A stretch of DNA of 17,161 bases from an uncultured Collinsella sp. (GTDB lineage Bacteria; Actinomycetota; Coriobacteriia; Coriobacteriales; Coriobacteriaceae): positions 1 to 17,161 of the forward strand of contig USGN01000005.1 of NCBI GenBank assembly GCA_900554255.1, written 5' to 3'. The position numbers and the translations under genes were made by a program. Below, one piece after another: positions 1,318-17,050 of this stretch. A model generated the notes under the pieces. The model did no database searches and was not told the origin of the DNA. It saw only the letters and a list, made by a program, of their open reading frames with translations. Position 1 is the stretch's first letter, and each line of letters opens with the position of its first letter.

Positions 1318-3999
1318 TTACTCTTTCTCGACCGCGCGCATGATCGCCTTGTAGATCTCCATCAACGGGATGATCAGGAAGGCCAGACCCAGCGCGGCAA
1401 GAACGCCCTTGAGTTCAAGCGTCACAGGGCCGAAGAACATCTCGGCAAGCGTCGGCTGCACGGTCACGATCACCGTCAGCACCAGTGCCAGCGCGGCAGA
1501 AGCCCACAGCCACTTGTTCTGCTTCTTCATGGTGAACAGCGACGCACGACGGCTGCGCATATTGAAGCAGTGGAAAATCTCGACCATGTTGAGTGTGATG
1601 AACGCCATCATCACGCCTTCCTCGTCGGCATTGCCGGCGATCATATCGGCGATGTGGATGTAGCCCATGTCAAAGTACACGCCCACAAAGAAGCTCGCCA
1701 GCACCAGCACGGTGATGATCAGGCCCTGGACCACGCAGTCCAGACCCATATGTCCGGCAAAGACGCCGTCCTTGGCGTTGCGCGGCTTGCGCTTCATGAT
1801 GTCGCCCTCGGCGTCCTCCATGCCCAGCGCGAGCGCGGGGAAGCAGTCGGTGACCAGGTTCACCCACAGCAGCTGCACCGGCTGAAAGATGGTAAAGCCG
1901 ATGAGCGTGGCGATGAATACCGAGAAGACCTCGGCAAGGTTGGCCGAAAGCAGGAACTGGATGACCTTGCGGATGTTGTCGTAGATGCGACGGCCCTCTT
2001 CGCAGGCACCGATGATGGTGGCGAAGTTGTCGTCGGCGAGCACCATGTCGGCAACGTTCTTGGTGACGTCGGTACCGGTGATGCCCATGCCCACGCCGAT
2101 GTCGGCACGCTTGATGGACGGGGCGTCGTTGACGCCGTCGCCCGTCATGGCCACGATCTGGTCGCGCGACTTCCAAGCCTCGACGATGCGGGTCTTATGC
2201 TCGGGCTGAACGCGGGCGTACACGCCGTAGTCCTCGATGTGCGCGTCGAGCTCCTCGTCGCTCATGCGATCGAGGTCGGCACCGGTGATGGCATGGCTGC
2301 GATCGGTGACGATGCCCAGCTGCTTGGCGATGGCCACGGCGGTGTCGATGTGGTCGCCCGTGATCATGACGGTGCGAATACCGGCATCGTGGGCCTCGCG
2401 GATGGCGTCGGCGACCTCGGGGCGGACAGGGTCAATCATGCCGGACAGGCCGCAGAAGACCAGGTCATGCTCGAGCGCAGCGGGGCTGCAGTCGCTCGGG
2501 ACCTCGGTGTAGGTGCGGCTTGCCAGCGCCAGCACGCGCAGGGCCTCGTCGGCCATGGCCTTGTTGGCGGCCACGAGCTCGGCGCGACGCTCCTCGGTCA
2601 GCGGAACGACCTTATCACCCTCGTAGATATGGGTGCACAGGCCGATCACCACGTCGGGCGCGCCCTTGGTGTACTGCTCATACTCGCCGTCCAGGGTCTC
2701 GACGACCACGGACATCATCTTGCGGCCCGAGTCGAACGGGGCCTCGCCCACGCGCGGGTGCTCGGCAGTCAAACCAGTAAGACCAGCCTTGCCGGCATCG
2801 TTGACAAGTGCGCACTCGGTCGGCTCGCCCACGGCCTCGCCCAGCTCCTCGTCCCACTGGGCATCGGAGCACAGAGCCATGCCGGCCAGGAACTTCTCCT
2901 TAGGCGCGGCGAGCTCGTGCTTGACGACGGTCATCTTGTTTTGGGTAAGGGTACCGGTCTTGTCGGAGCAGATGGTCTGCGTGCAGCCAAGGGTCTCGAC
3001 GGCAGAGAGCTTGCGGATAATCGCCTGGCGCTTGGCCATTTTGGTCACGCCGAGCGAAAGCACGATAGTCACGACGGCAACCAGACCCTCAGGGATGGCG
3101 GCGACGGCAAGCGAGACGGCGACCATAAAGGTATCGAGCAGGGCGGTCGGGTCGGTAAGAACGTTGCCCACGCCGTGACGGATGATGTCGACGCCAAAGA
3201 TGACGACGCAGATGACGATAACCATGATGGTAAGGATGCGGCTGAGCTCGGCAAGCTTCACCTGCAGCGGCGTGAGCTCTTCCTTGGCCTCGGCCAGGGC
3301 GCCGGCGATCTTGCCCATCTCGGTGTTCATACCGGTGCCGACCACGACGGCGCGACCGCGGCCGTATACCACGGTGGAACCCATGTAGCACATGTTCTTG
3401 CGGTCGCCGAGCGGCACGTCGTCGGTGCCGGCGGCGAGCTCAATGACGTTGGCATGCTTCTCGACGGGCACGGACTCGCCGGTAAGGGCGGCCTCCTCGA
3501 TCTTCATCGTGGCGCTCTCGAGCACACGGCAGTCGGCCGGGACGGAGTCGCCCGCCTCGAGCATGATCACATCGCCGGGCACGAGCTCGGCGCTCGGCAG
3601 GTGCACGAGCTTGCCGTCGCGCAGCACCTTGGACTGCGCCGCGCTCATCTCCTGCAGGGCCTCGAGGGCCTCCTCGCTTTTAGCCTCCTGGACCACGCCC
3701 AGCACCGAGTTGACGATAACGACGAACATGATAATGGCGACGTCGGCAAAATCGGGCTCGCCCTTGACCATGCCCGTAAGTGCGCTGATAACGGCGGCAA
3801 CGATCAGCATGATGACCATAGGGTCTGCCATCTGCTCAAAGAAACGCTTCCACAGCGGCGTCTTCTCGGCTTCCTCGAGCTTGTTAGGGCCTGTCTTGGC
3901 GAGGCGCGACGACGCCTCGCCGTTGCTCAGGCCGAGATTCTCATCGACGCCTTGGTCGCTGAGCACCTCCGCCGCGGCGGACAGGTATTCCTTTTGCAT
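1318..3999 (-). CDS. P2A-type cation-transporting ATPase (calcium-pump-like)
   Basis: This is an 893-residue integral membrane pump that should couple ATP hydrolysis to cation export, most likely Ca2+. Visible in order: N-terminal cation-ATPase domain (about 5-75), actuator motif TGES (173-176), M4 motif PEGL (303-306), phosphorylation motif DKTGT with D346, nucleotide-domain KGAPD (445-449), TGD (547-549), TGDGVND (619-625), then M5-M10. Residues matching both Ca2+ sites of the SERCA pump are present: E304 in M4, N687 and E690 in M5, N714, T717 and D718 in M6, and E807 in M8. This argues for a SERCA/PMR1-like rather than a heavy-metal pump. Mn2+ transport cannot be excluded. The ATG at 3999 has a strong AGGAGGGG Shine-Dalgarno (4007-4014), part of which is paired in a leader hairpin. 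The next gene leftward, rsgA, is unrelated. Confidence 0.95.
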   Translation of the reverse strand: MQKEYLSAAAEVLSDQGVDENLGLSNGEASSRLAKTGPNKLEEAEKTPLWKRFFEQMADPMVIMLIVAAVISALTGMVKGEPDFADVAIIMFVVIVNSVLGVVQEAKSEEALEALQEMSAAQSKVLRDGKLVHLPSAELVPGDVIMLEAGDSVPADCRVLESATMKIEEAALTGESVPVEKHANVIELAAGTDDVPLGDRKNMCYMGSTVVYGRGRAVVVGTGMNTEMGKIAGALAEAKEELTPLQVKLAELSRILTIMVIVICVVIFGVDIIRHGVGNVLTDPTALLDTFMVAVSLAVAAIPEGLVAVVTIVLSLGVTKMAKRQAIIRKLSAVETLGCTQTICSDKTGTLTQNKMTVVKHELAAPKEKFLAGMALCSDAQWDEELGEAVGEPTECALVNDAGKAGLTGLTAEHPRVGEAPFDSGRKMMSVVVETLDGEYEQYTKGAPDVVIGLCTHIYEGDKVVPLTEERRAELVAANKAMADEALRVLALASRTYTEVPSDCSPAALEHDLVFCGLSGMIDPVRPEVADAIREAHDAGIRTVMITGDHIDTAVAIAKQLGIVTDRSHAITGADLDRMSDEELDAHIEDYGVYARVQPEHKTRIVEAWKSRDQIVAMTGDGVNDAPSIKRADIGVGMGITGTDVTKNVADMVLADDNFATIIGACEEGRRIYDNIRKVIQFLLSANLAEVFSVFIATLIGFTIFQPVQLLWVNLVTDCFPALALGMEDAEGDIMKRKPRNAKDGVFAGHMGLDCVVQGLIITVLVLASFFVGVYFDMGYIHIADMIAGNADEEGVMMAFITLNMVEIFHCFNMRSRRASLFTMKKQNKWLWASAALALVLTVIVTVQPTLAEMFFGPVTLELKGVLAALGLAFLIIPLMEIYKAIMRAVEKE

Positions 4000-4009
4000 A
4001 TAGAGTCCC

Positions 4010-4108
4010 CTCCTGGGATTCGGGCCACTCAGCAGATTGATGCCCGATCATAATTCCCAGGAGAAGGGCAAGGGCTCATCAAGGCTGCCGTGCTGAGCGG
4101 CAGTTGAT
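4010..4108 (-). promoter_or_regulatory. Two-hairpin leader with complementary loops, sequestering the ATPase ribosome-binding site
   Basis: Read on the minus strand, hairpin 1 (4108-4078) has a 6-bp stem CTGCCG/CGGCAG extended by ATCAA/TTGAT, with loop CTCAGCA (4097-4091). After a 14-nt linker, hairpin 2 (4063-4010) has a 9-bp outer stem CTCCTGGGA/TCCCAGGAG and an inner stem CGGGC/GCCCG. Its apical loop contains TGCTGAG (4034-4028), the exact complement of the hairpin 1 loop. The 3' outer arm contains AGGAG of the ATPase Shine-Dalgarno sequence. The pairing is visible in the sequence; a translational switching role is inferred. I do not recognise it as a known riboswitch class. Confidence 0.6.
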
Positions 4109-4117
4109 AGTGGAGCT

Positions 4118-4147
4118 ATGGTACCCCAAAGCGACGCGTCTAGCCAA
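4118..4147 (-). promoter_or_regulatory. Candidate promoter of the cation ATPase gene
   Basis: On the minus strand TTGGCT (4147-4142) and TACCAT (4123-4118) are 18 bases apart, each matching 4 of 6 consensus positions. A start near A4111 would begin the transcript three bases before leader hairpin 1. That agreement, not the hexamers alone, is the reason for listing it. Confidence 0.35.
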
Positions 4148-4346
4148 AACATTCCAATTGGAAACACGGCTCGAGTGCAACGATGCAGACCGTGTGATGC
4201 TCAATATTGATAAAACGTTTTTTCTTCGGCGCATCATCGAACTAAAATATCGCCCAGATAGCAGCGGTTAGAACGGTTGGTAAAGTTTTTGCATATACCG
4301 TTTTTCCGCAAAAAATGAACTTCTAATTCGGCATACGGTCGATTTT

Positions 4347-4377
4347 TTGAGGTATTCGGTCGGCATTTCGTTATAAT
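4347..4377 (+). promoter_or_regulatory. Promoter of the pyruvate kinase gene
   Basis: A perfect -10 TATAAT (4372-4377) lies in an AT-rich stretch. A weak -35 TTGAGG (4347-4352) is 19 bases upstream, longer than ideal. The start would be near 4384, giving a leader of about 55 bases. Between this promoter and the ATPase leader (about 4150-4340) the DNA is AT-rich with no gene seen. Confidence 0.6.
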
Positions 4378-4440
4378 CATCTCAGTTTTATTTCTTATGG
4401 TTTATCTATCAGCGCAAGACGATGTCAGATGGAGGTCTGA

Positions 4441-5901
4441 ATGTACAAGCGCACCAAGATTGTATGCACCATGGGTCCCGCCTGCGATAGCGACGAGACC
4501 ATCCGCGAGATGATCAAGGCGGGCATGAACGTCGCCCGTTTTAACTTCTCGCACGGATCCTACGACGAGCACCACGGTCGCATCGAGCGCGTCCGTCGTA
4601 TTTCCAAGGAGCTCGGTCTGCCCGTCGGCATCCTGCTCGACACCAAGGGCCCCGAGGTCCGCACCGGCCTTTTGGTCGATGGCAAGAAGGTTGCCGTCAA
4701 GACCGGCGACAAGATCGTCGTCACCGCTCAGCCCACGTCCGAGGATTTCCACGGCACCGCTGAGCACATCTCCCTCGACTACCTGGCTCTGCCCTCCGAG
4801 GTCGAGAAGGGCTCCCTCATCCTGATCGATGACGGCCTGGTTGCCCTCGAGGTCGAGTCCGTCGACGGCCAGGACATGACCTGCGTCGTTAAGAACGACG
4901 GCCTGATCGGCGAGCGCAAGGGCGTCAACATGCCCAACGTCAACATCTCGCTGCCCGCCATCACCGAGCGCGATCGTCAGGACATCCTCTTTGGCCTGAC
5001 CGAGAACATCGACTACATCGCCGCTTCCTTCATCCGTGACGGCGAGTCCGTCCGCGGCATCCGCGAGCTTTGCCGCGAGAACGGCGGCGAGCACGTGACG
5101 ATCTTCCCGAAGATCGAGTGCGCCCTGGGCGTCGAGAACTTCGACGAGATCCTCGAGGCTTCCGACGGCATCATGGTCGCCCGTGGCGACCTGGGCATCG
5201 AGATCAAGCCCGAGCTCGTTCCGCACATCCAGAAGGAGATCATCGCTAAGTGCAACGCGGCCTACAAGCCCGTTATCACCGCTACGCAGATGCTCGACTC
5301 CATGCAGCAGAACCCGCGCCCGACGCGCGCCGAGGTTGCCGACGTTGCTAACGCCATTTACGACGGCACCGACGCCGTTATGCTTTCCGGCGAGTCCGCT
5401 GCCGGCAAGTACCCGGTCGAGGCCGTCAAGATGCAGGCCAGCATCGCTCTCGAGACCGAGAAGTACCTCCCGGCCCACGCTCCGCTCGAGGTTCCGGCCG
5501 ATGCTCACGGCACCCGCGTCGTCAACAACGTTGTGGGTATGTCCGCTGTGAACATGGCTACCACCGTTGGCGCCAAGTGCATCACCGTGCCGACGACCAC
5601 CGGTCGTACCGCTCGCCTGATCTCGCACTTCCGTCCCAACATGCCGATCTGCGCGTTCTCCCGCCACGAGTGGGCCGTCCAGCAGATGATCATGTACTGG
5701 GGCGTTATCCCGCACCAGGCCGAGATTACCCAGGGCACCGTCAACGGCACGATCGTCAAGGCGATCGAGACCGCTAAGGAGCTCGGCTACGTCGAGGCCG
5801 GCGACCTGACCGTCGCTACCGCCGGCGATCCCCGCATGAGCGTCCAGCTCGAGGACAAGGTCTCCTCGACCAACGTCGCTTACGTCGCTCAGGTGCGCTA
5901 A
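4441..5901 (+). CDS. pyk: Pyruvate kinase
   Basis: This cytoplasmic glycolytic enzyme converts phosphoenolpyruvate and ADP to pyruvate and ATP. At 486 residues it has the usual bacterial length without the extra C-terminal PEP-utiliser domain seen in some Gram-positive forms. Landmarks: NFSHGS (35-40), DTKGPEVRTG (67-76), the signature FPKIECALG with catalytic K224, MVARGDLG (245-252) with metal-binding residues, TATQML (280-285), ADVANA (300-305) and MLSGES (314-319). The B domain occupies about 72-165 and the allosteric C domain about 350-486. The ATG at 4441 follows GGAGG (4431-4435). The gene is monocistronic, with a TATAAT promoter and a strong terminator. Compared with its neighbours it favours GCT, CGT and TCC codons alongside C-ending ones, as expected for a highly expressed gene. 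Confidence 0.98.
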   Translation: MYKRTKIVCTMGPACDSDETIREMIKAGMNVARFNFSHGSYDEHHGRIERVRRISKELGLPVGILLDTKGPEVRTGLLVDGKKVAVKTGDKIVVTAQPTSEDFHGTAEHISLDYLALPSEVEKGSLILIDDGLVALEVESVDGQDMTCVVKNDGLIGERKGVNMPNVNISLPAITERDRQDILFGLTENIDYIAASFIRDGESVRGIRELCRENGGEHVTIFPKIECALGVENFDEILEASDGIMVARGDLGIEIKPELVPHIQKEIIAKCNAAYKPVITATQMLDSMQQNPRPTRAEVADVANAIYDGTDAVMLSGESAAGKYPVEAVKMQASIALETEKYLPAHAPLEVPADAHGTRVVNNVVGMSAVNMATTVGAKCITVPTTTGRTARLISHFRPNMPICAFSRHEWAVQQMIMYWGVIPHQAEITQGTVNGTIVKAIETAKELGYVEAGDLTVATAGDPRMSVQLEDKVSSTNVAYVAQVR

Positions 5902-5930
5902 GTCGTACTTGCAAGCAGGTTTGCATTGCA

Positions 5931-5966
5931 AAGGGCCCGGAAGGCAAAGCCTTCCGGGCCCTTTTT
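5931..5966 (+). terminator. Strong rho-independent terminator of pyk
   Basis: Arms 5931-5945 and 5949-5963 pair perfectly (core GGGCCCGGAAGGC) around an AAA loop, and the stem runs into TTTTT at 5962-5966. It lies 30 bases after the pyk stop codon. Confidence 0.93.
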
Positions 5967-6106
5967 CTATGCCAATGCCGGCACACGGCAAAACACACAC
6001 TCATTTCTTTACCAAAAGCGCGAAATCCACCCTTCGAGGCCCAATAAATATAGTCCCAAGCGATAAAAGTGTTCGCCCGGTGGCAAACCCGCACCTTGAC
6101 CGACGC

Positions 6107-8318: not shown

Positions 8319-9113
8319 CTAGTCCGTAGCACCGCTTTCGGTTCCATACGACGGCGAAGGCACCTCGATCACATGGTGATATCGATCGATATAGATTGCA
8401 CGGGCACCCAGGCGTCGCACCAAATCCTGGTGATGTGTGCTCATCAAGACCGTCTTACCCGCCGCGACGTAGGCCAGCAAGAAGTTGACCACGATGTCGC
8501 ATGAATCCTCGTCGAGCCCATTGGTGGGCTCATCGAGCACGAGGATATCGGGGCTCATCGATACGACTGCCGCCAGCGCCACGCGCTTCTTTTGTCCGCC
8601 CGAAAGCTGATAGGGCGAGGCATCGACCAGGTCGGCAACTTGAAACAGTTCCATGGCATCGCGCACGCGGCGCTCGAGCTCGTCTACCGGCAGCCCCATC
8701 TGCGCGGGACCAAAAGCAACTTCCTCGCGCACCGTAGCGCAGAACAGCTGAGCATCGGCATTTTGAAACACAAAACCTACGCGCTGATGAAAACGCTGAG
8801 CGGCCGCGGAATCCTTTAGAAACGCCGCATCGATCACATGCCCGTCAAACAGGTATGCCCCTGCGTCCGCGAGTTCAAGGCCGTTAATAAGGCGCATGAT
8901 CGTCGTCTTACCGCAGCCGTTGGGACCGAGCAGGGCAACGAGTTCACCACGGTCGACCTGCAGCGAAACGCCGTCGACCACCGTATGGCCCGCATAGGAA
9001 AACACCACGTCGCGCAGCTCGATGAGCGGCGCGACCTCGGGGCTGCCCGCATCGTTCGTGCCCGCTGCACTATTCATATCGACCGTCAAAACGTCGCCCT
9101 TCCCTAGTTGCAT
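8319..9113 (-). CDS. nikO: ECF metal transporter ATP-binding subunit
   Basis: This is the ATPase (A component) of an energy-coupling-factor importer. From the ATG at 9113 (264 residues) it shows Walker A GPNGCGKTT (63-71), Q-loop FQNADAQLF (116-124), signature LSGGQKKR (170-177), Walker B with ILVLDEP (190-196) and H-loop H227. The Q-loop region FQNADAQLFCATVREEVAFGP is typical of CbiO/NikO-type ATPases. The reading frame is open further upstream, but that would overlap the preceding gene by about 100 bases. ATG 9113 lies 19 bases after the upstream stop, without a good Shine-Dalgarno sequence. ATG 9077, or TTG 9089 behind GGGAAGGG, are alternatives, because family similarity begins only around PLIELRDVVFSY. 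It is the last gene of the operon. The symbol nikO rather than cbiO rests on the S component and the operator. Confidence 0.88.
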   Translation of the reverse strand: MQLGKGDVLTVDMNSAAGTNDAGSPEVAPLIELRDVVFSYAGHTVVDGVSLQVDRGELVALLGPNGCGKTTIMRLINGLELADAGAYLFDGHVIDAAFLKDSAAAQRFHQRVGFVFQNADAQLFCATVREEVAFGPAQMGLPVDELERRVRDAMELFQVADLVDASPYQLSGGQKKRVALAAVVSMSPDILVLDEPTNGLDEDSCDIVVNFLLAYVAAGKTVLMSTHHQDLVRRLGARAIYIDRYHHVIEVPSPSYGTESGATD

Positions 9114-9132
9114 CAGCAGTCCGCCGCCCGCA

Positions 9133-9969
9133 CTACAGCACGGCGCACAACACTGCCAGCAGCGCCACGCCGGCCGCATAGGCCGCATCGCGCCAGCCAA
9201 ACCTGGCGCGCGCGGGAGCCGGATACGCACCGGCAAAGCCGCGGCAAAGCATAGCCTCGTCCATCGCGCGACTGCATTCCATCGCCTTGATAAACGTCAT
9301 GCCCATGATACCCGCCAGCGAGTCGGTGCGCGAAAAACCCTCGGGCGCACGGCCAACGCTGCGCAGCATGACCGATTCGCACAGATCGTGCGCCGTGCGT
9401 CCCAGCACCTCGATGTGCTTGAGCGCCATATCAAACGTAAAGATAACTTCGTCGGGTAGATGCAGCATCTTGAGCGCCGCCGACATGCGGCTCCACGTGA
9501 GGGTCCACGAAACGCCCAGCACCAGCGACACATTAATGAAGGTCTTGAGCGCAATCTTGAGCATGGCGCCCGTAGCGGAAGCACCCAGCAGCAGGGCAGG
9601 CAGCGCCAAAACCACTGCGAGCCCCGCGGCGCCAAGCGCCGGCACAAAGGTCGCGCGCAGCCCGCGTATGGGACGCACGGCAACGAGCACCAGCGCAATG
9701 GCCGCCATCAACATGAGGTACAGCGGGCTTTGTGTCAGGCACACGCACAGGACGCAAACGAATATCCCCACCAGGCGCACCGGAGCCGAAACGCAAGAAA
9801 GGGCGCGGTCGACCATCGACCCGCCCTCGTGCGCGCCTCCACCCAGGCGAACCCGCTCAAGCAGGCTCGCCAGGTGCAGGACGTTCTTTTGCATCACGCG
9901 ATGACGAGCGCCCGTGGGCTCGTATCGCTCCTCGGCCGCAAGCCAGCTAGGCAGCTCGACCATCGCCAT
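9133..9969 (-). CDS. nikQ: ECF metal transporter transmembrane T component
   Basis: This 278-residue CbiQ/NikQ-family membrane protein couples the ATPase to the substrate-binding S component. After a cytoplasmic N-terminal stretch containing LPSWL, hydrophobic segments lie at about 63-100, 107-132 and 137-157, with one at the C-terminus (261-278). The T-component coupling helices carry the expected small-Arg-Gly-type motifs: ESVMLRSVG (198-206) and DEAMLCRGF (237-245). The latter matches the family pattern Am..RGf. ATG 9969 overlaps the end of the preceding gene by 23 bases, with GGAG close upstream. The ATG at 9963 is nearly as good because its Shine-Dalgarno spacing is better. The overlap indicates translational coupling in a three-gene operon. 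Confidence 0.88.
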   Translation of the reverse strand: MAMVELPSWLAAEERYEPTGARHRVMQKNVLHLASLLERVRLGGGAHEGGSMVDRALSCVSAPVRLVGIFVCVLCVCLTQSPLYLMLMAAIALVLVAVRPIRGLRATFVPALGAAGLAVVLALPALLLGASATGAMLKIALKTFINVSLVLGVSWTLTWSRMSAALKMLHLPDEVIFTFDMALKHIEVLGRTAHDLCESVMLRSVGRAPEGFSRTDSLAGIMGMTFIKAMECSRAMDEAMLCRGFAGAYPAPARARFGWRDAAYAAGVALLAVLCAVL

Positions 9970-11278: not shown

Positions 11279-13732
11279 CTAGCCGCGGACCTCGCCGTTT
11301 ACGCCCTTGCATACCTTGGTGACGATCTTCTGGTGCGCCTTCTCGACCTCTTCGCTGGTGAGCGTGTGGTCGTCGGAGCGATACGTAAGCGCGAAGGCCA
11401 TGGACTTTTTGCCCACGCCCACGCGGACCGGATCGCGATAGACGTCGAACAGACGCACGCCCTCGAGCAGCTTGCCGCCGGCGCTGGTAATGCGGCGCTC
11501 AAGATCCTCGCAGGTCACGGAGTTATCGACCACGATAGCCAGATCGTGCTCAACAGCCGGATACTGCGAGAACTCGCGGTAGTTCTCCTGGTTGCGGGCG
11601 CCCTTGATCAGCTTGTCCAGGTCGAGCTCAAAGGCAACGACGACCTCGTCGATGCCCATGGCTTCGCGCGCCTCGGGGTGGATCTCGCCGACCCAGCCCA
11701 GCACGGTGCCGCCGGACAGAACCTCGGCCGCACGACCCGGATGCAAGAAGGCATAGCCCTCGCCCTCGACGGGACGGAAGCGAACCTTCTCGATGCGCAG
11801 CTGGGCAAGCAGCTCCTCAACGATGCCCTTGCCAAAGAAGAAACGCAGCTTGCGGTACTTCATGTTCCAAGACCGCTCGCTCCACTGGCCCGAGAGCACG
11901 CCCGCCACGGACTTGGTCTCCTTGGGCAGGCTGGCGTTCTCGCGACCGTGGAACAAGCTGCCGACCTCGTACAGATGCACGTTGGGCGTGCCGTGGGCCT
12001 CGTTGTAGGCCACAGACTGCAACAGGCCTGGCAACAGCGAGCGGCGCATCTCGGTCTGCTCGGCTACCAGCGGGTTCATGAGCACCACGGGGCAACCGCG
12101 ACCCTCGGTGGACATACCGATCTTCTCCAGGTCGCCCGGGGCGGCAAAGCCAAAAGTCGTGGTCTCGTTGAGGCCGCAGGCGCGCAGGATCTCGCCGACC
12201 TTACGAGTGAGCTTCTGCTCGCGGGTCAGACCGCCGATGTGGTTCTTGGCAGCCGGAATGGTCGCCGTCACGCGGCCCATGCCCCATAGGCGCAAGACCT
12301 CCTCGATCAGGTCGATCTCACGCGGCAGGTCGGGACGGAAGCTCGGCGGCGTGACCATAAAGTCCTCGCCGTCGCGCTCGACGGTGCAGCCCAGGCGGGT
12401 GAGCGAGCGCTCGATAAAGTCAGGCTCGATGTCGGCGCCGCAGATGGCATGCACGCGGGCCAGGCGCAGCTTAATGCTGTCGATGGTCTTGGGCGCGGGG
12501 AACACGTCCACATAGCCGGGAGCAACCTCGCCGCCGGCGATCTCCTCGATCAGCGCGCAGGTAACGTTGGCGACATCCACGCAGCCGGTCTCGTCGACCT
12601 GGCGCTCAAAGCGAATGGAGGCGTCGGAGATCAGCGACAGATCGCGGCTGGTGTGCGAGGTGCGACCGGCGTTGAAGCAGGCGCTCTCGACCATCACGTC
12701 GACGGTGTCGTCCTCGATCTCGGAATCCATGCCGCCCATAACGCCGGCCAATGCCACGGGACGCTCGCCGTCGGTGATGAGGCCCATACCGGCGTCGAGC
12801 ACGCGCTCCTCGCCGTCGAGCGTCGTGAACTTCTCGTCCTGCTGGGCGGCGCGAACCACCACACGACGGTGGCCATCGCGCTCGGCAAAGGTGTCCAGGT
12901 CAAAGGCGTGCAGCGGCTGACCGGTGAGCATCATCACATAGTTGGTGATGTCGACGATGTTGTTGTGCGGGCGCACGCCCAAGGCGTTAAGGCGCTTGAC
13001 CATCCAGTCGGGCGACGGGCCGACCTTGACGTTGCGCACGATGCGGGCAACGTAGCGGTCGCACAGGCCCTCGTCGGCAATCTCGACCGAAAGCTCGTCG
13101 TCGGTCGCGCGGCCGGTCTCGGCCTTGATGGCGGGCAGCTCAACGTGGAAATCGCGGTCGAAGATGGCGCCGGTCTCGCGGGCCATGCCGATCATGGACA
13201 GACAATCGGGACGGTTGGGCGTGATCTCGCAGTCGAGCACGGTGTCGCTCGAGCCCACGTACTCGGCAAACGGCATACCGCAGGGCGTATCCTCGGGCAG
13301 GATCATGATGCCGGAGTGGTCGCCGCCCAAGCCGAGCTCGCGCGCGGAGCAGTTCATGCCCATGGACACGACGCCGCGAAGCTTGCTCTTCTTGATCTTG
13401 ACGTCGCCGGGCAGGACAGCGCCAATCATTGCCGTGACGATGTGGTCGCCGGCCTCGAAGTTCTGCGCGCCGCAGACGATCTGCAGCGGAGCGGGATTGC
13501 CGTCGGCGTCGAGATTCTTGTCGCCCACATCGACCGAGCACACATACATGTGGTCGCTATCGGGGTGCGGGATCTTGGTGAGCACCTTGGCGGTCACCAC
13601 GTGGTCGAAGGACTCGCCCACGGTGTCGATCGCCTCGACCTCGGTGCCGGTACGGATATATTCGTCCGAAAGGGTCTTGGGATCCTCCGGAATATCGATC
13701 ATGGTCTTGAGCCAGTCGTAAGAAACGCGCAT
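11279..13732 (-). CDS. pheT: Phenylalanyl-tRNA synthetase beta subunit
   Basis: This is the beta subunit of the cytoplasmic alpha2-beta2 enzyme that charges tRNA-Phe. At 817 residues it has the full bacterial length. An N-terminal EMAP-like tRNA-binding domain (about 43-150) includes HVVTAKVLTKIPHPDSDHMYVC and CSARELGLGGDHSGI. The B3/B4 editing region and B5 domain follow. A catalytic-like core contains LRLWGMGRVTATIP and MNPLVAEQTEMRRSLLPGLL, and a C-terminal anticodon-binding FDX-ACB domain (about 720-817) begins YREFSQYPAVEHDLAIVV. The ATG at 13732 has AGGAGA (13737-13742) upstream. The gene follows pheS by 162 bases, an unusually wide gap for this pair that contains a large hairpin. Expression should depend on the pheS T-box leader. 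Confidence 0.97.
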   Translation of the reverse strand: MRVSYDWLKTMIDIPEDPKTLSDEYIRTGTEVEAIDTVGESFDHVVTAKVLTKIPHPDSDHMYVCSVDVGDKNLDADGNPAPLQIVCGAQNFEAGDHIVTAMIGAVLPGDVKIKKSKLRGVVSMGMNCSARELGLGGDHSGIMILPEDTPCGMPFAEYVGSSDTVLDCEITPNRPDCLSMIGMARETGAIFDRDFHVELPAIKAETGRATDDELSVEIADEGLCDRYVARIVRNVKVGPSPDWMVKRLNALGVRPHNNIVDITNYVMMLTGQPLHAFDLDTFAERDGHRRVVVRAAQQDEKFTTLDGEERVLDAGMGLITDGERPVALAGVMGGMDSEIEDDTVDVMVESACFNAGRTSHTSRDLSLISDASIRFERQVDETGCVDVANVTCALIEEIAGGEVAPGYVDVFPAPKTIDSIKLRLARVHAICGADIEPDFIERSLTRLGCTVERDGEDFMVTPPSFRPDLPREIDLIEEVLRLWGMGRVTATIPAAKNHIGGLTREQKLTRKVGEILRACGLNETTTFGFAAPGDLEKIGMSTEGRGCPVVLMNPLVAEQTEMRRSLLPGLLQSVAYNEAHGTPNVHLYEVGSLFHGRENASLPKETKSVAGVLSGQWSERSWNMKYRKLRFFFGKGIVEELLAQLRIEKVRFRPVEGEGYAFLHPGRAAEVLSGGTVLGWVGEIHPEAREAMGIDEVVVAFELDLDKLIKGARNQENYREFSQYPAVEHDLAIVVDNSVTCEDLERRITSAGGKLLEGVRLFDVYRDPVRVGVGKKSMAFALTYRSDDHTLTSEEVEKAHQKIVTKVCKGVNGEVRG

Positions 13733-13801
13733 GTAGCTCTCCTAGTTCTTAATCTCCGCAAAGAGAGGAATATCAAATGAAGACGTTCGCCTTAGGGTTG
13801 T

Positions 13802-13888
13802 CCAGGTGCCCCAGGTTGGCGTGAAAGAGGAGCGACGCGTACTAAAGGTACGCGAGCGACGGTTTGAACGCCAAGATGGGGTGCCTGG
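13802..13888 (-). repeat. Stepped hairpin between pheS and pheT
   Basis: Arms 13802-13813 and 13877-13888 pair over 12 positions (two as G-U). After a 2x2 internal loop, 13816-13822 (TTGGCGT) pairs perfectly with 13868-13874. A central hairpin GCGTAC/GTACGC (13837-13842 and 13848-13853) is flanked on both sides by the direct repeat GAGCGAC (13830-13836 and 13854-13860). It begins 7 bases after the pheS stop and has no T tract, so it is not a simple terminator. Confidence 0.7.
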
Positions 13889-13894
13889 GCAAGC

Positions 13895-14971
13895 CTAAAA
13901 TTGGTTCAGGAAGCGCATATCGCCCGTCATCAGGGTTCGCAGGTCGGGCAGGTCGTAGCGCAGGGCCGCGACGCGCTCGGCGCCAATACCAAAGGCGAAG
14001 CCGGTGTACTTCTCGGGGTCGATGCCGCAGTTGATAAGGACGTTGGGGTCGACCATGCCGCAGCCCAGGATCTCGATCCAGCCGCTGTGCTTGCAGAAGT
14101 TGCAGCCCTTGCCGCCGCACACGTGGCAGCTCACGTCCACCTCGCAGGAAGGCTCGGTGAAGGGGAAGAAGTGCGGGCGATAGCGCGTCTTGCGGTCCTC
14201 GCCAAACATGCACTTAACAAAGTAGTCGAGCGTGCCCTTAAGGTCGCCAAAGGTGATGCCCTCGTCGACGACCAGGCCCTCGATCTGGTTGAACTGCGGC
14301 AGGTGGCAGGCGTCGGCCGTGTCGGGACGGTAGACGGTGCCCGGGCAGATCATGTAGATGGGCGGCTTTTGCGACTCCATGGTGTGGATCTGCACGCCCG
14401 AGGTCTGGGTGCGCAGCAGCACGTCGGACTCGCCGTGGGCGTGAGCCTCGGGGTGCGCGACGCTGCCGGGGTTGTTGTCGACCACATAGAACGTGTCGCG
14501 AGCCGAGCGGCTCGGGTGATCCATGGGCGCGTTGAGCGCGGTAAAGTTGTAGTAGGAGGTATCGACCATGGGGCCGGACTCGACGGTGTAGCCGATACCG
14601 CAGAAGATGTCCTCGGCCTCCTCGATGATCTGCTTGATCAGGTGCTGGTGACCGATCTGCGGACGGATGCCCGGCAGCGTGATGTCGACGGCCTCGTGCT
14701 CGAGTGCGTGCTTGAGGGCGGCGGCCTTCATCTCGGTGGTGCGCTCGTCGAGCATGCCCTCGATCAGTTGGCGCATCTCGTTGGCGCGCTTGCCCATCAT
14801 GGGACGATCCTCGGGGGCGAGCTTGCCCATCATGCGCATCAGGCCGGTGATACGGCCCTTGCGGCCGAGCAGCTCAACGCGCGCGGCCTCGAGCTTGGCG
14901 GCGTCGTCAGCGCTAGTGACGAGCTCCTTGGCCTCTTCCTCGAGTTTGACCAGATCATCAATCAGACTCAT
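13895..14971 (-). CDS. pheS: Phenylalanyl-tRNA synthetase alpha subunit
   Basis: This is the catalytic class II subunit, 358 residues. The N-terminal coiled-coil that contacts tRNA spans about 1-90. The core shows GPMVDTSYYNFTALNAPMDHPSR (133-155), LLRTQTSGVQIHTM (185-198), the motif 2 region VYRPDTADACHLPQFNQIEGLVVD (213-236) and motif 3 FGIGAERVAALRY (327-339). A four-cysteine cluster (C282, C285, C290, C293), CHVCGGKGCNFC, is as in other Gram-positive-type PheS. A 17-residue His-containing insert (about 166-182, NNPGSVAHPEAHAHGES) precedes LLRTQTS. The start is ATG 14971 with AGGGA upstream. The frame is open beyond this, but that extension covers the T-box leader. pheT follows in the same operon. 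Confidence 0.97.
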   Translation of the reverse strand: MSLIDDLVKLEEEAKELVTSADDAAKLEAARVELLGRKGRITGLMRMMGKLAPEDRPMMGKRANEMRQLIEGMLDERTTEMKAAALKHALEHEAVDITLPGIRPQIGHQHLIKQIIEEAEDIFCGIGYTVESGPMVDTSYYNFTALNAPMDHPSRSARDTFYVVDNNPGSVAHPEAHAHGESDVLLRTQTSGVQIHTMESQKPPIYMICPGTVYRPDTADACHLPQFNQIEGLVVDEGITFGDLKGTLDYFVKCMFGEDRKTRYRPHFFPFTEPSCEVDVSCHVCGGKGCNFCKHSGWIEILGCGMVDPNVLINCGIDPEKYTGFAFGIGAERVAALRYDLPDLRTLMTGDMRFLNQF

Positions 14972-15055
14972 GTCTTCCCTTTCGTCTCTCGCGCTCCCCG
15001 CTTGCCGAGGCGGCTGCCGCCGTCTGACGCTGTGAAAACGCGGCCCGGTTCGGTA

Positions 15056-15341
15056 ACAAAAAACCGCCCTCGGGCATGTACATTGCCCAAGGACGGTTGA
15101 ATTCCGCGGTACCACCTTGTTTGACCCGGCGGATGTCTGGCCCGCCGCGCCCACTCTGTGCCTCTTGTCGCGAGGCTCACGGCTTCCCTACTGGGACTTT
15201 GCTGCCACTGGCCGCGTGCCCGTTGAGGTCGCTGCTCGGGAGTGAACGCTTGGCCCTTGCCACCGCAGGAAGGCTTGCAGCCCATGACCTTCCCTCTCTT
15301 GCCGGCGACGCGGCGGGCAAAACCCTCTCCGTCAACGCATT
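15056..15341 (-). promoter_or_regulatory. T-box leader of pheST, likely tRNA-Phe responsive
   Basis: On the minus strand the conserved T-box sequence AAGGTGGTACCGCGG lies at 15118-15104. It can pair with ACCGTCCTT downstream as the antiterminator. The competing terminator has arms 15097-15085 and 15075-15063 and runs into TTTTTT. The base of stem I is CGTTGA/TCAACG (15337-15332 and 15226-15221). A likely specifier UUC, followed by A and the short helix strand CUCC, lies at 15246-15244. T-box leaders bind uncharged tRNA and prevent termination, so low tRNA-Phe charging should induce pheS and pheT. Confidence 0.92.
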
Positions 15342-15475: not shown

Positions 15476-17050
15476 ATGGGAAAGAAGCACGATAAGAAGG
15501 CCGAGCCCGCAGCGGGCAAGACGCCCAAAGGCATGAAGGTCGATAAGGCCGTCAAAAAATTCCGTAAACTCGAGGGCAAGCTGTGGACTCGCGAGTACCT
15601 GCTCAAGATTGCCGAGTTCGATGGCGCGACCATTGCTCCCGCCAACGGCGCCGCAGCGCGCGCCGACGCCATGGGCACCCTTGCCGGCGAGCATCATAAG
15701 CTCCTGACCAGCGAAAAGTCTGTCGAACTTGTGCGCTCGCTGGCACGCGAAACCGTCGCCGGCGGCAAGATCAACGACCCGCAGCTGCTCGACGAGATCC
15801 GCGTGCTCGGCCGTGACCAGCGCGAAGCGAGCGTCATTCCCACCGAGGAGGCCGAGGCCTGGACCAGGCTCACCTGCGAGGCCGACGCCGTATGGCATAA
15901 GGCCAAGACGGCCAACGACTGGGCGAGCTTTGAGCCCTATGTGGATAGAATCGTCGCCCAACTTAAGCATCAGGCCGAGCTCATGGACCCCAAGCGCGAC
16001 CCATACGATGTTTGGCTCGACCAGTACGAGCGCGGCCTTTCCACTGAGAGCTTCGACGCGTTTTGCGAGGAGGTCAAGGCCACGGTCGTGCCGCTCGTGC
16101 ACGCCATCGGCGAGCGCGGCCAGCAGCCCGCTGCCGACTTTTTGCACGCCCGCGTGCCCGAGGCCGCCCAGCGCGCCATGAGCTTCGACCTGATGAAGCT
16201 CGTCGGCCTGAACCTGGACGACACCACGCTTGCCTTTACCGAGCACCCGTTTAGCGAGGGCTTTGCCGTGGGCGACGCGCGCATCGCGACGCACATCTAC
16301 GAGGACGACTGCATCTCCAACGTCTACAGCATCATCCACGAGGCGGGCCACGCCATGTACGAGCTGGGCGTCAATCCTGCCTATGCGCGCACCTGCCTGG
16401 AGGGCGGCACCTCCATGGGCATCCACGAGAGCCAGAGCCGCTTCTTTGAGAACACCGTGGGCCGCAGCCGTGCCTTTATGGGACCGCTGCTCGAGGTGCT
16501 GCGCCGCCACGCACCCGAGGTCTACGGCGACGTCGACGAGGACACGCTCTACCACGCCGTGAACATCGCGCAGCCTTCGCTGATCCGCACCGAGGCCGAC
16601 GAGCTCACCTATCCGCTGCACGTTATGGTGCGCTACGAGATCGAGCGCATGCTGTTTGCCGGCGAGGCCACGGCCAAGGACATCCCCGCGCTTTGGAATC
16701 GCTTTATGGACGAGTACCTGGGCATTCCCGTTCCCGACGACACGCACGGCTGCCTACAGGATACGCACTGGAGCGGCGGCTCATTTGGCTACTTCCCCAC
16801 CTATGCGCTGGGCAGCGCTTACGACGCCATGTTTGTGCCGGCCATGTGCCGCGACGGTGTCGACCTTACCGGCGCCTGCGCGAGCGGCGACCTGACACCT
16901 GTCCGCGCCTGGCTGGGCGAGCACATTTGGCAGTGGGGCCGCGCCAAAGACGCGCCGGAGCTCATCAAGAGCGCCTGCGGTATGGCGTTTGACGCCCGCT
17001 ACTACTGCAGCTACCTGCAGGACAAGTTCACCACGCTCTACGAGCTGTAA
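15476..17050 (+). CDS. M32-family metallocarboxypeptidase (carboxypeptidase Taq type)
   Basis: This 524-residue cytoplasmic zinc carboxypeptidase releases C-terminal residues from peptides. The zinc motif HEAGH (H288, E289, H292) is followed by HESQSR (317-322), with E318 as the third ligand, 30 residues after H288 as in characterised M32 enzymes. Other family blocks are IRTEADELTYPLHV (370-383) and GSFGYFPTYALG (435-446). The N-terminal helical region matches the family from about EFDGATIAPANGAAARADAMGTLAGEHHKLLTS (47-79). A lysine-rich stretch (residues 1-30) is an unusual extension, though the start (ATG 15476, AAGGA at 15465-15469) looks sound. No signal peptide is seen. The gene is divergent from pheST and monocistronic, ending at a terminator. 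No clear promoter was found in 15355-15475. Confidence 0.95.
   Translation: MGKKHDKKAEPAAGKTPKGMKVDKAVKKFRKLEGKLWTREYLLKIAEFDGATIAPANGAAARADAMGTLAGEHHKLLTSEKSVELVRSLARETVAGGKINDPQLLDEIRVLGRDQREASVIPTEEAEAWTRLTCEADAVWHKAKTANDWASFEPYVDRIVAQLKHQAELMDPKRDPYDVWLDQYERGLSTESFDAFCEEVKATVVPLVHAIGERGQQPAADFLHARVPEAAQRAMSFDLMKLVGLNLDDTTLAFTEHPFSEGFAVGDARIATHIYEDDCISNVYSIIHEAGHAMYELGVNPAYARTCLEGGTSMGIHESQSRFFENTVGRSRAFMGPLLEVLRRHAPEVYGDVDEDTLYHAVNIAQPSLIRTEADELTYPLHVMVRYEIERMLFAGEATAKDIPALWNRFMDEYLGIPVPDDTHGCLQDTHWSGGSFGYFPTYALGSAYDAMFVPAMCRDGVDLTGACASGDLTPVRAWLGEHIWQWGRAKDAPELIKSACGMAFDARYYCSYLQDKFTTLYEL

Follow-up and report, generated by a model that had tools for sequence, protein, structure and literature searches.

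A conserved RNA motif in the leaders of calcium-type P-ATPase genes of Coriobacteriia, a candidate cation-responsive translational switch

Comparison of orthologous leaders makes it nearly certain that a conserved cis-regulatory RNA motif exists upstream of the calcium-type P-ATPase gene analyzed here. Probably, the leader acts in cis as an ON riboswitch for translation that no Rfam 15 class covers and through which a divalent cation would induce the synthesis of its own exporter. Because the motif is a compact hairpin that is accessible to direct synthesis and probing, its position upstream of Ca2+-type pump genes in two families of bacteria makes RNA-based Ca2+ sensing in bacteria a testable idea.

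The window, by which we mean the whole stretch of 17,161 nucleotides that was analyzed, comes from a gut bacterium of the genus Collinsella. It encodes on its minus strand a type IIA (Ca2+-type) P-ATPase of 893 amino acids (positions 1318 to 3999), which in a protein similarity search was 100% identical to a C. aerofaciens record over the best-matching segment. The best NCBIfam matches of the pump were Ca2+-ATPase models, at scores below their cut-offs, and its nearest solved protein is a Listeria Ca2+-ATPase. A gap of 402 bases lies, on the minus strand, between the pump gene and an upstream reading frame at 4402 to 6000, and the leader of the pump gene occupies about 4111 to 4000; all leader features below lie on this strand. 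The reading frame 5' of the leader (532 amino acids, minus strand) matched no Pfam or NCBIfam model. Elsewhere in the window, adjoining reading frames for an ABC ATPase and a CbiQ-type transmembrane protein resemble an ECF-type importer (8319 to 9969, minus strand), pheT and a pheS-like synthetase gene follow at 11279 to 15154 (minus strand), and an M32 carboxypeptidase is encoded on the strand opposite to pheT and the pheS-like gene (15476 to 17050, plus strand).

A first-pass annotation of this DNA had drawn two hairpins in the leader, with complementary loops and with the Shine-Dalgarno (SD) sequence locked in the second. The elements are present in the sequence: hairpin 1 pairs CTGCCG (4103 to 4098) with CGGCAG (4090 to 4085) around the loop CTCAGCA (4097 to 4091), of which TGCTGAG (4034 to 4028) is the exact reverse complement, and the minimum-energy fold holds AGGAGG (4014 to 4009) in a 9-bp stem. 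The two drawn hairpins correspond to the SD-masked (OFF) fold described below; in the predicted fold, TGCTGAG sits in the loop region of an inner stem of the SD hairpin and not in a simple hairpin loop. Taken singly, the fold of the window leader was moderately better than expected by chance (z of −2.2; 4 of 200 shuffles equally good). Hence, a comparison across leaders was needed, and the compensatory changes found across 47 distinct leaders place the complementarity above chance.

Orthologues of the pump were gathered by protein similarity alone (77 loci, from the best 80 of 405 matches), and one of them, L101, was excluded from the first leader count because its match starts at a contig edge. 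The same core, recognized by pattern, was present 39 to 76 bases 5' of the start codon in 75 of 76 orthologue leaders, L103 being the one without it, and a DNA search using the leader gave matches in 35 of 58 near genomes. Collapsing the 75 leaders to distinct cores left 43 (alignment A1), in which 16 columns are invariant and a further 6 are at least 90% conserved. Their consensus is (G/A)(A/G)G-CCC-UUG-CC..GG-A(A/G)UUAnnAUC-GGG, from which few cores, that of L106 among them, deviate. In the order of the motif, an outer helix (P0) encloses a helix P1, an internal loop of nearly invariant sequence (UUG / AAUUAnnAUC), and P2, a short hairpin bearing an anti-Shine-Dalgarno (anti-SD) sequence.

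The lower part of P1 consists of UUGAUG (4077 to 4082) and CAUCAA (4037 to 4042), which covary on A1 and on a second alignment, A2, and its upper part of CCC (4072 to 4074) paired with GGG (4043 to 4045), both invariant in the 43 rows of A1. P2 is the hairpin CCC-UUCUCCU-GGG (4056 to 4068), whose two closing C-G pairs are invariant in A1. Over P1 and P2 together, 87.8% of the cells of A1 are paired, and 37 cells are changed on both sides versus 15.3 in shuffles; none of 500 shuffles reached the observed paired percentage, number of double-change cells, or covariation score. The observed 8 of 13 pairs with double changes were reached by 9 of the 500 shuffles, and the number of pair types by 307.

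The most conserved part of the motif is the internal loop (4071 to 4069 / 4055 to 4046), which was absent from the first-pass annotation. Its 5' side (4069 to 4071) reads UUG in 62 of 63 representative leaders and UAG in one, and its 3' side is AAUUAUGAUC (4046 to 4055). Among these 63 leaders, the 5' core strand has a mean pairwise identity of 0.95 and the 3' internal-loop strand one of 0.86 (values that are inflated because the leaders were picked by a pattern fixing part of the core), versus 0.33 and 0.38 for the arms of P0, 0.26 for the sequence farther 5', and 0.46 for the gene's first 60 bases. A conserved pocket between freely changing helices resembles a ligand site, and both sides of the loop presumably belong to such a site.

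The 5' arm of P0, GCCGCUCAGCA (4091 to 4101), pairs with the 3' arm, UGCUGAGUGGC (4024 to 4034). In alignment A2, which holds 47 of 90 distinct leaders and was selected by the sequence of the linker and P1 and not by P0, 10 of the 11 pairs of P0 have changed on both sides, so that the predicted covariation between the loop complements was borne out. Paired cells make up 88.4%, and double-change cells number 80 versus 32.8 in shuffles; the paired percentage, the double-change cells, and the covariation score were reached by none of 500 shuffles, the number of pairs by 60, and the number of pair types by 5. Sliding the register lowered the pairing to 31 to 48%, and the outermost pair is formed in 16 of the 47 leaders. 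The arms also pair better with their own partners than with swapped ones (−18.6 versus −15.8 kcal/mol; 0 of 2,000 permutations as strong). As expected of a riboswitch, a conserved leader structure with covariation in P1/P2 and in P0 thus lies 5' of related genes in 75 of 76 cases. The linker between P0 and P1, CGGCAGCC (4083 to 4090), is likewise conserved in the A2 leaders; its GGCAGCC stays the same while the adjacent helices vary and could pair with the start of the 3' arm of P0. An alternative extension of P1, GGCAG with CUGYY, has 96.6% of its cells paired and no changes on both sides and is neither supported nor excluded.

How could this structure control translation? The loop and 3' strand of P2 are complementary to the ribosome-binding site, and the anti-SD CUUCUCCUGGG (4056 to 4066) faces CCCAGGAGGGG (4007 to 4017), which comprises the SD and the bases pairing with the anti-SD. 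When this pairing was forced in L001, which is 100% identical to the window over the leader query used in the DNA search, it extended over 11 bp (4066 to 4056 with 4017 to 4007). Anti-SD and SD sequences pair better with each other than when swapped between leaders (−19.5 versus −18.6 kcal/mol; 0 of 2,000 permutations as strong), a small but consistent effect, and L054, L081, and L101 carry double changes (CUCCCGGG with CCCGGGAG replacing CUCCUGGG with CCCAGGAG, and similar). Forced folds were calculated for 63 of 65 representative leaders, with L074 and L082 dropped for a wrong start codon and the OFF value of L051 unreliable because this leader was kept with a wrong start. The OFF fold was lower in 46 of the 63 (median difference, 4.7 kcal/mol), and the ON fold lay within 5 kcal/mol of it in 29; for L001, the values were −37.9 (ON) and −44.4 (OFF) kcal/mol. 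We treat the two folds as exclusive because, for the anti-SD to reach the SD with P0 still closed, about 6 bases would have to span about 20 base pairs. Against a general switch, the OFF fold is not the lower one in 17 of the 63 leaders, the SD pairing is weak in several, and L065/L030 have an unrelated P2 without a good anti-SD. A putative aptamer that overlaps its expression platform was therefore found in most leaders, not in all, and the motif likely switches between folds. The idea of a compact translational switch before a calcium-type P-ATPase, as put forward in the first-pass annotation, is supported in part: the masked SD, the missing Rfam match, and the covarying complementarity favor such a candidate, whereas the kissing-loop geometry found no support.

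We hypothesize that the nascent leader folds into P0, P1, and P2 around the internal loop UUG / AAUUAnnAUC, which would bind the divalent cation. When the ion is scarce, this fold would not be held, the P2 loop and 3' strand would pair with the ribosome-binding site, and translation would be off; in the window leader, the released 5' arm of P0 could then form hairpin 1. With the ion in excess, P1 and P2 would be stabilized by the ligand, P0 would close, and the anti-SD would be kept from the SD, which would be free for synthesis of the pump and hence for export of the ion.

The ligand that we favor, tentatively, is Ca2+, because the pump retains SERCA-like Ca2+ ligands. In an alignment of the pump with 23 relatives (L081, L106, and L315 were ignored as wrong frames), E in M4, NxxE in M5, TD in M6, and E in M8 were present in all 10 readable motif-bearing pumps. 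We take these residues to be the equivalents of SERCA E309, N768, E771, D800, and E908, the ligands of two Ca2+ sites, and they speak for Ca2+ without proving it. In L309 and L310 (family f2), the corresponding residues are NxxG and R, and L311 to L314 have Q at the M8 position. Within the group, the residues do not track the motif, as L103, L305, and L307, in which the motif is absent or changed, carry the same ones. It is conceivable, though we regard it as doubtful, that the motif represents the first natural class of Ca2+ riboswitch, in which an internal-loop aptamer turns on a SERCA-like two-site Ca2+ pump as cytosolic Ca2+ rises. If calcium is sensed, the motif would be the kind of RNA sensor that specialists expected and had not yet found; a 2022 review regards Ca2+, together with K+ and Zn2+, as a strong candidate for the ligands of undiscovered riboswitch classes (PMC10043782, Box 4).

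The main rival keeps the architecture and the ON mechanism but takes Mn2+ or a different transition metal to be what is sensed, with the motif replacing yybP-ykoY in the two families. We consider this reading unlikely on balance and place Mn2+ second among the ligands; it is the main rival because yybP-ykoY-like leaders precede some of the homologous pumps in other parts of the class. The leaders of L311, L314, L336, and L338, from other families of the class, contain GGGGAGUAGC and GACCU-type words, presumably those of the yybP-ykoY consensus. The RF00080 model matched 7 places, none above its cut-off of 45 bits, and of these only L336 and L338 (22.8 and 22.1 bits) precede a homologous pump. 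The L311 leader scored 15 bits, below the same cut-off, and L314 gave no RF00080 match at E-values up to 1, which counts against Mn2+. The four leaders possibly represent a branch of the Mn2+ riboswitch that has diverged and is under-detected. RF00080 matches occurred in 6 of 119 genomes of the class and in none of families f1 and f5, as would fit a replacement, and motif-free pumps such as L309 and L310 had no yybP-ykoY words within 200 leader bases. The pumps themselves argue against Mn2+, as those with the motif have the M8 glutamate of what we take to be the SERCA-like Ca2+ set, whereas L311 to L314 have Q. In favor of Mn2+, the pneumococcal pump MgtA is described as being under the control of an Mn/Ca-sensing yybP-ykoY riboswitch (PMC11434433). 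A cation riboswitch can thus occupy the leader slot of such a pump, which supports a cation sensor and at the same time keeps Mn2+ a serious rival. If Mn2+ were the ligand, the motif would be a second, unrelated RNA solution at a gene position held by yybP-ykoY-like leaders in related bacteria.

Among known riboswitches, yybP-ykoY resembles the window leader as we interpret it in that it turns on a cation-exporter gene, and yybP-ykoY-like leaders lie in the same slot in a few relatives. However, yybP-ykoY has a multi-helix junction, whereas the window leader has a different core sequence and a single long interrupted hairpin. At the gathering score, Rfam 15 had no match, RF00080 included, in the window or in 16 loci, nor in 13 loci whose pumps have no motif or a variant of it; at E-values up to 10, the window leader and L105 gave nothing relevant, the best E-values being above 1 for unrelated families and RF00080 being absent. 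These searches agree with the remark of the first-pass annotation that the leader lacks features of the yybP-ykoY, M-box, NiCo, and purine riboswitches. NiCo and M-box riboswitches sense divalent cations in transporter leaders, as we propose for the window leader, which unlike them has no Rfam match. The Na+-I (DUF1646) and Li+-I/II (nhaA) riboswitches are likewise small ion-sensing RNAs before ion transporters, but with other ion chemistry and genes (PMC9337991 and PMC9646797). No mention of Coriobacter or Olsenella was found in PMC9337991. A term search of the main texts of two discovery papers, on 26 and 50 genomes, found none of the words Olsenella, Collinsella, Atopobium, Coriobacter, ATPase, and calcium. 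We found no published account of the motif in the literature searched, although an earlier listing is possible, for example among the 224 candidate RNAs that a 2017 paper reportedly describes.

Among the genomes searched, which belong to the phylum of the window, the motif is confined to a narrow group. Model R1 matched 149 of 346 genomes of the class and 14 of 296 in a sample of the phylum, all of the latter in families f1 or f5, which, to judge from named orthologue records, are Coriobacteriaceae and Atopobiaceae. Among 89 locus records, in which some places occur twice, the core was present in 76, each with a pump start 42 to 69 bases downstream, and of the 13 coreless records only L154 had a pump. 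The weak model matches L152, L153, L155, L156, and L159 to L166, coreless and without an adjoining pump start, are taken as chance; three of the weakest (G295, G097, and G185) had neither a core nor a pump start beside the best match. In 17 core-bearing regions, tandem paralogues included, a pump start lay just downstream in all. Seven genomes of the window's genus had two matches each, and in five of them (G035, G022, G009, G017, and G016) both copies precede pump paralogues near each other. A strict pattern found 0 matches in viral contigs, a looser one was unspecific among the matches listed, and the plasmids and phages searched had no motif match.

Confinement to two families would fit a lineage-specific regulator, and a protein, too, might recognize a conserved internal loop set between helices that covary. 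We nevertheless consider it rather improbable that the motif binds a regulatory protein rather than a ligand, as no regulator gene is evident beside the leader in the window and duplications of the motif involve the pump gene alone. Lower still is the chance of a ligand-free sensor of temperature, pH, or general Mg2+ that uses two folds of similar energy. The 29 of 63 leaders with ON and OFF energies within 5 kcal/mol of each other are consistent with such a sensor, but a thermosensor needs no nearly invariant internal loop.

A kissing-loop switch, as the first-pass annotation proposed from the exact 7-base complement in the window, is very improbable. The stem of hairpin 1 (CTGCCG-CTCAGCA-CGGCAG, 4085 to 4103) has 65.5% of its cells paired versus 65.4% in shuffles and a single double change, whereas the covarying pairing is 10 to 11 bp long and runs into this very stem. 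Two conserved hairpin stems with pairing confined to their loops were thus not found. Because P0 covaries and the stem of hairpin 1 does not, the loop complement is best seen as part of a nested helix enclosing P1, which contradicts the kissing loop as a general model. P0 and hairpin 1 are alternatives, as both use 4101 to 4098 (columns 4 to 7 of A2), and hairpin 1 is predicted as the alternative pairing of the 5' arm of P0 in the OFF fold of this leader. A leader peptide or attenuator, for which a short ATG-TGA frame is readable by eye (4079 to 4029), has a negligible chance and is excluded as a general explanation, because P2 lengths fall into all three phases (0, 1, and 2 modulo 3 in 53, 23, and 14 of 90 distinct leaders) and ATG is replaced by ACG in many leaders, which leaves no common frame.

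Some leaders depart from the common form of the motif. Against the riboswitch that we prefer, the motif is not indispensable, as the orthologues L103, L305, and L306 lack it, and the usual pairing of P1 is absent in seven leaders (L049, L053, L063, L064, L088, L094, and L102). In L181, P1 is retained but built from other sequences (GCCCUCAU with AUGAGGGC), and in the five genomes with neighboring pump paralogues, the first pump copy has a leader of the altered-P1 type (L167 to L171). In genome G256, the L154 (1470 to 1640)/L307 leader keeps P0, P1, P2, and the anti-SD and has the pocket UCG / ACACGUACGU, whereas the motif model matched strongly in the four further genomes of its genus that were searched. 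The change possibly reflects an altered specificity or a dead sensor; if the motif is indeed a Ca2+ riboswitch, this leader would be either a natural variant in specificity or a sensor of that class that has lost its function.

The transcript presumably starts near 4111, a position deduced as about 7 bases past a −10-like box, TACCAT (4118 to 4123). This is about 8 bases before hairpin 1 and not 3, as had been claimed. The promoter claim itself we rate as weaker: a consensus scan found no sigma-70-like site in 3900 to 4450, but the −10-like box recurs, as 38 of 65 representative leaders have GGTANNWT 5' of the core, against a mean of 2.0 and a maximum of 7 in shuffles. In the short leaders L061, L067, L070, and L072, which have no clear P0, the −10-like box lies near P1. 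In three of these, L061, L067, and L070, the SD lies between the complementary words AUGUAUC and GAUACAU, like the loop of a small hairpin.
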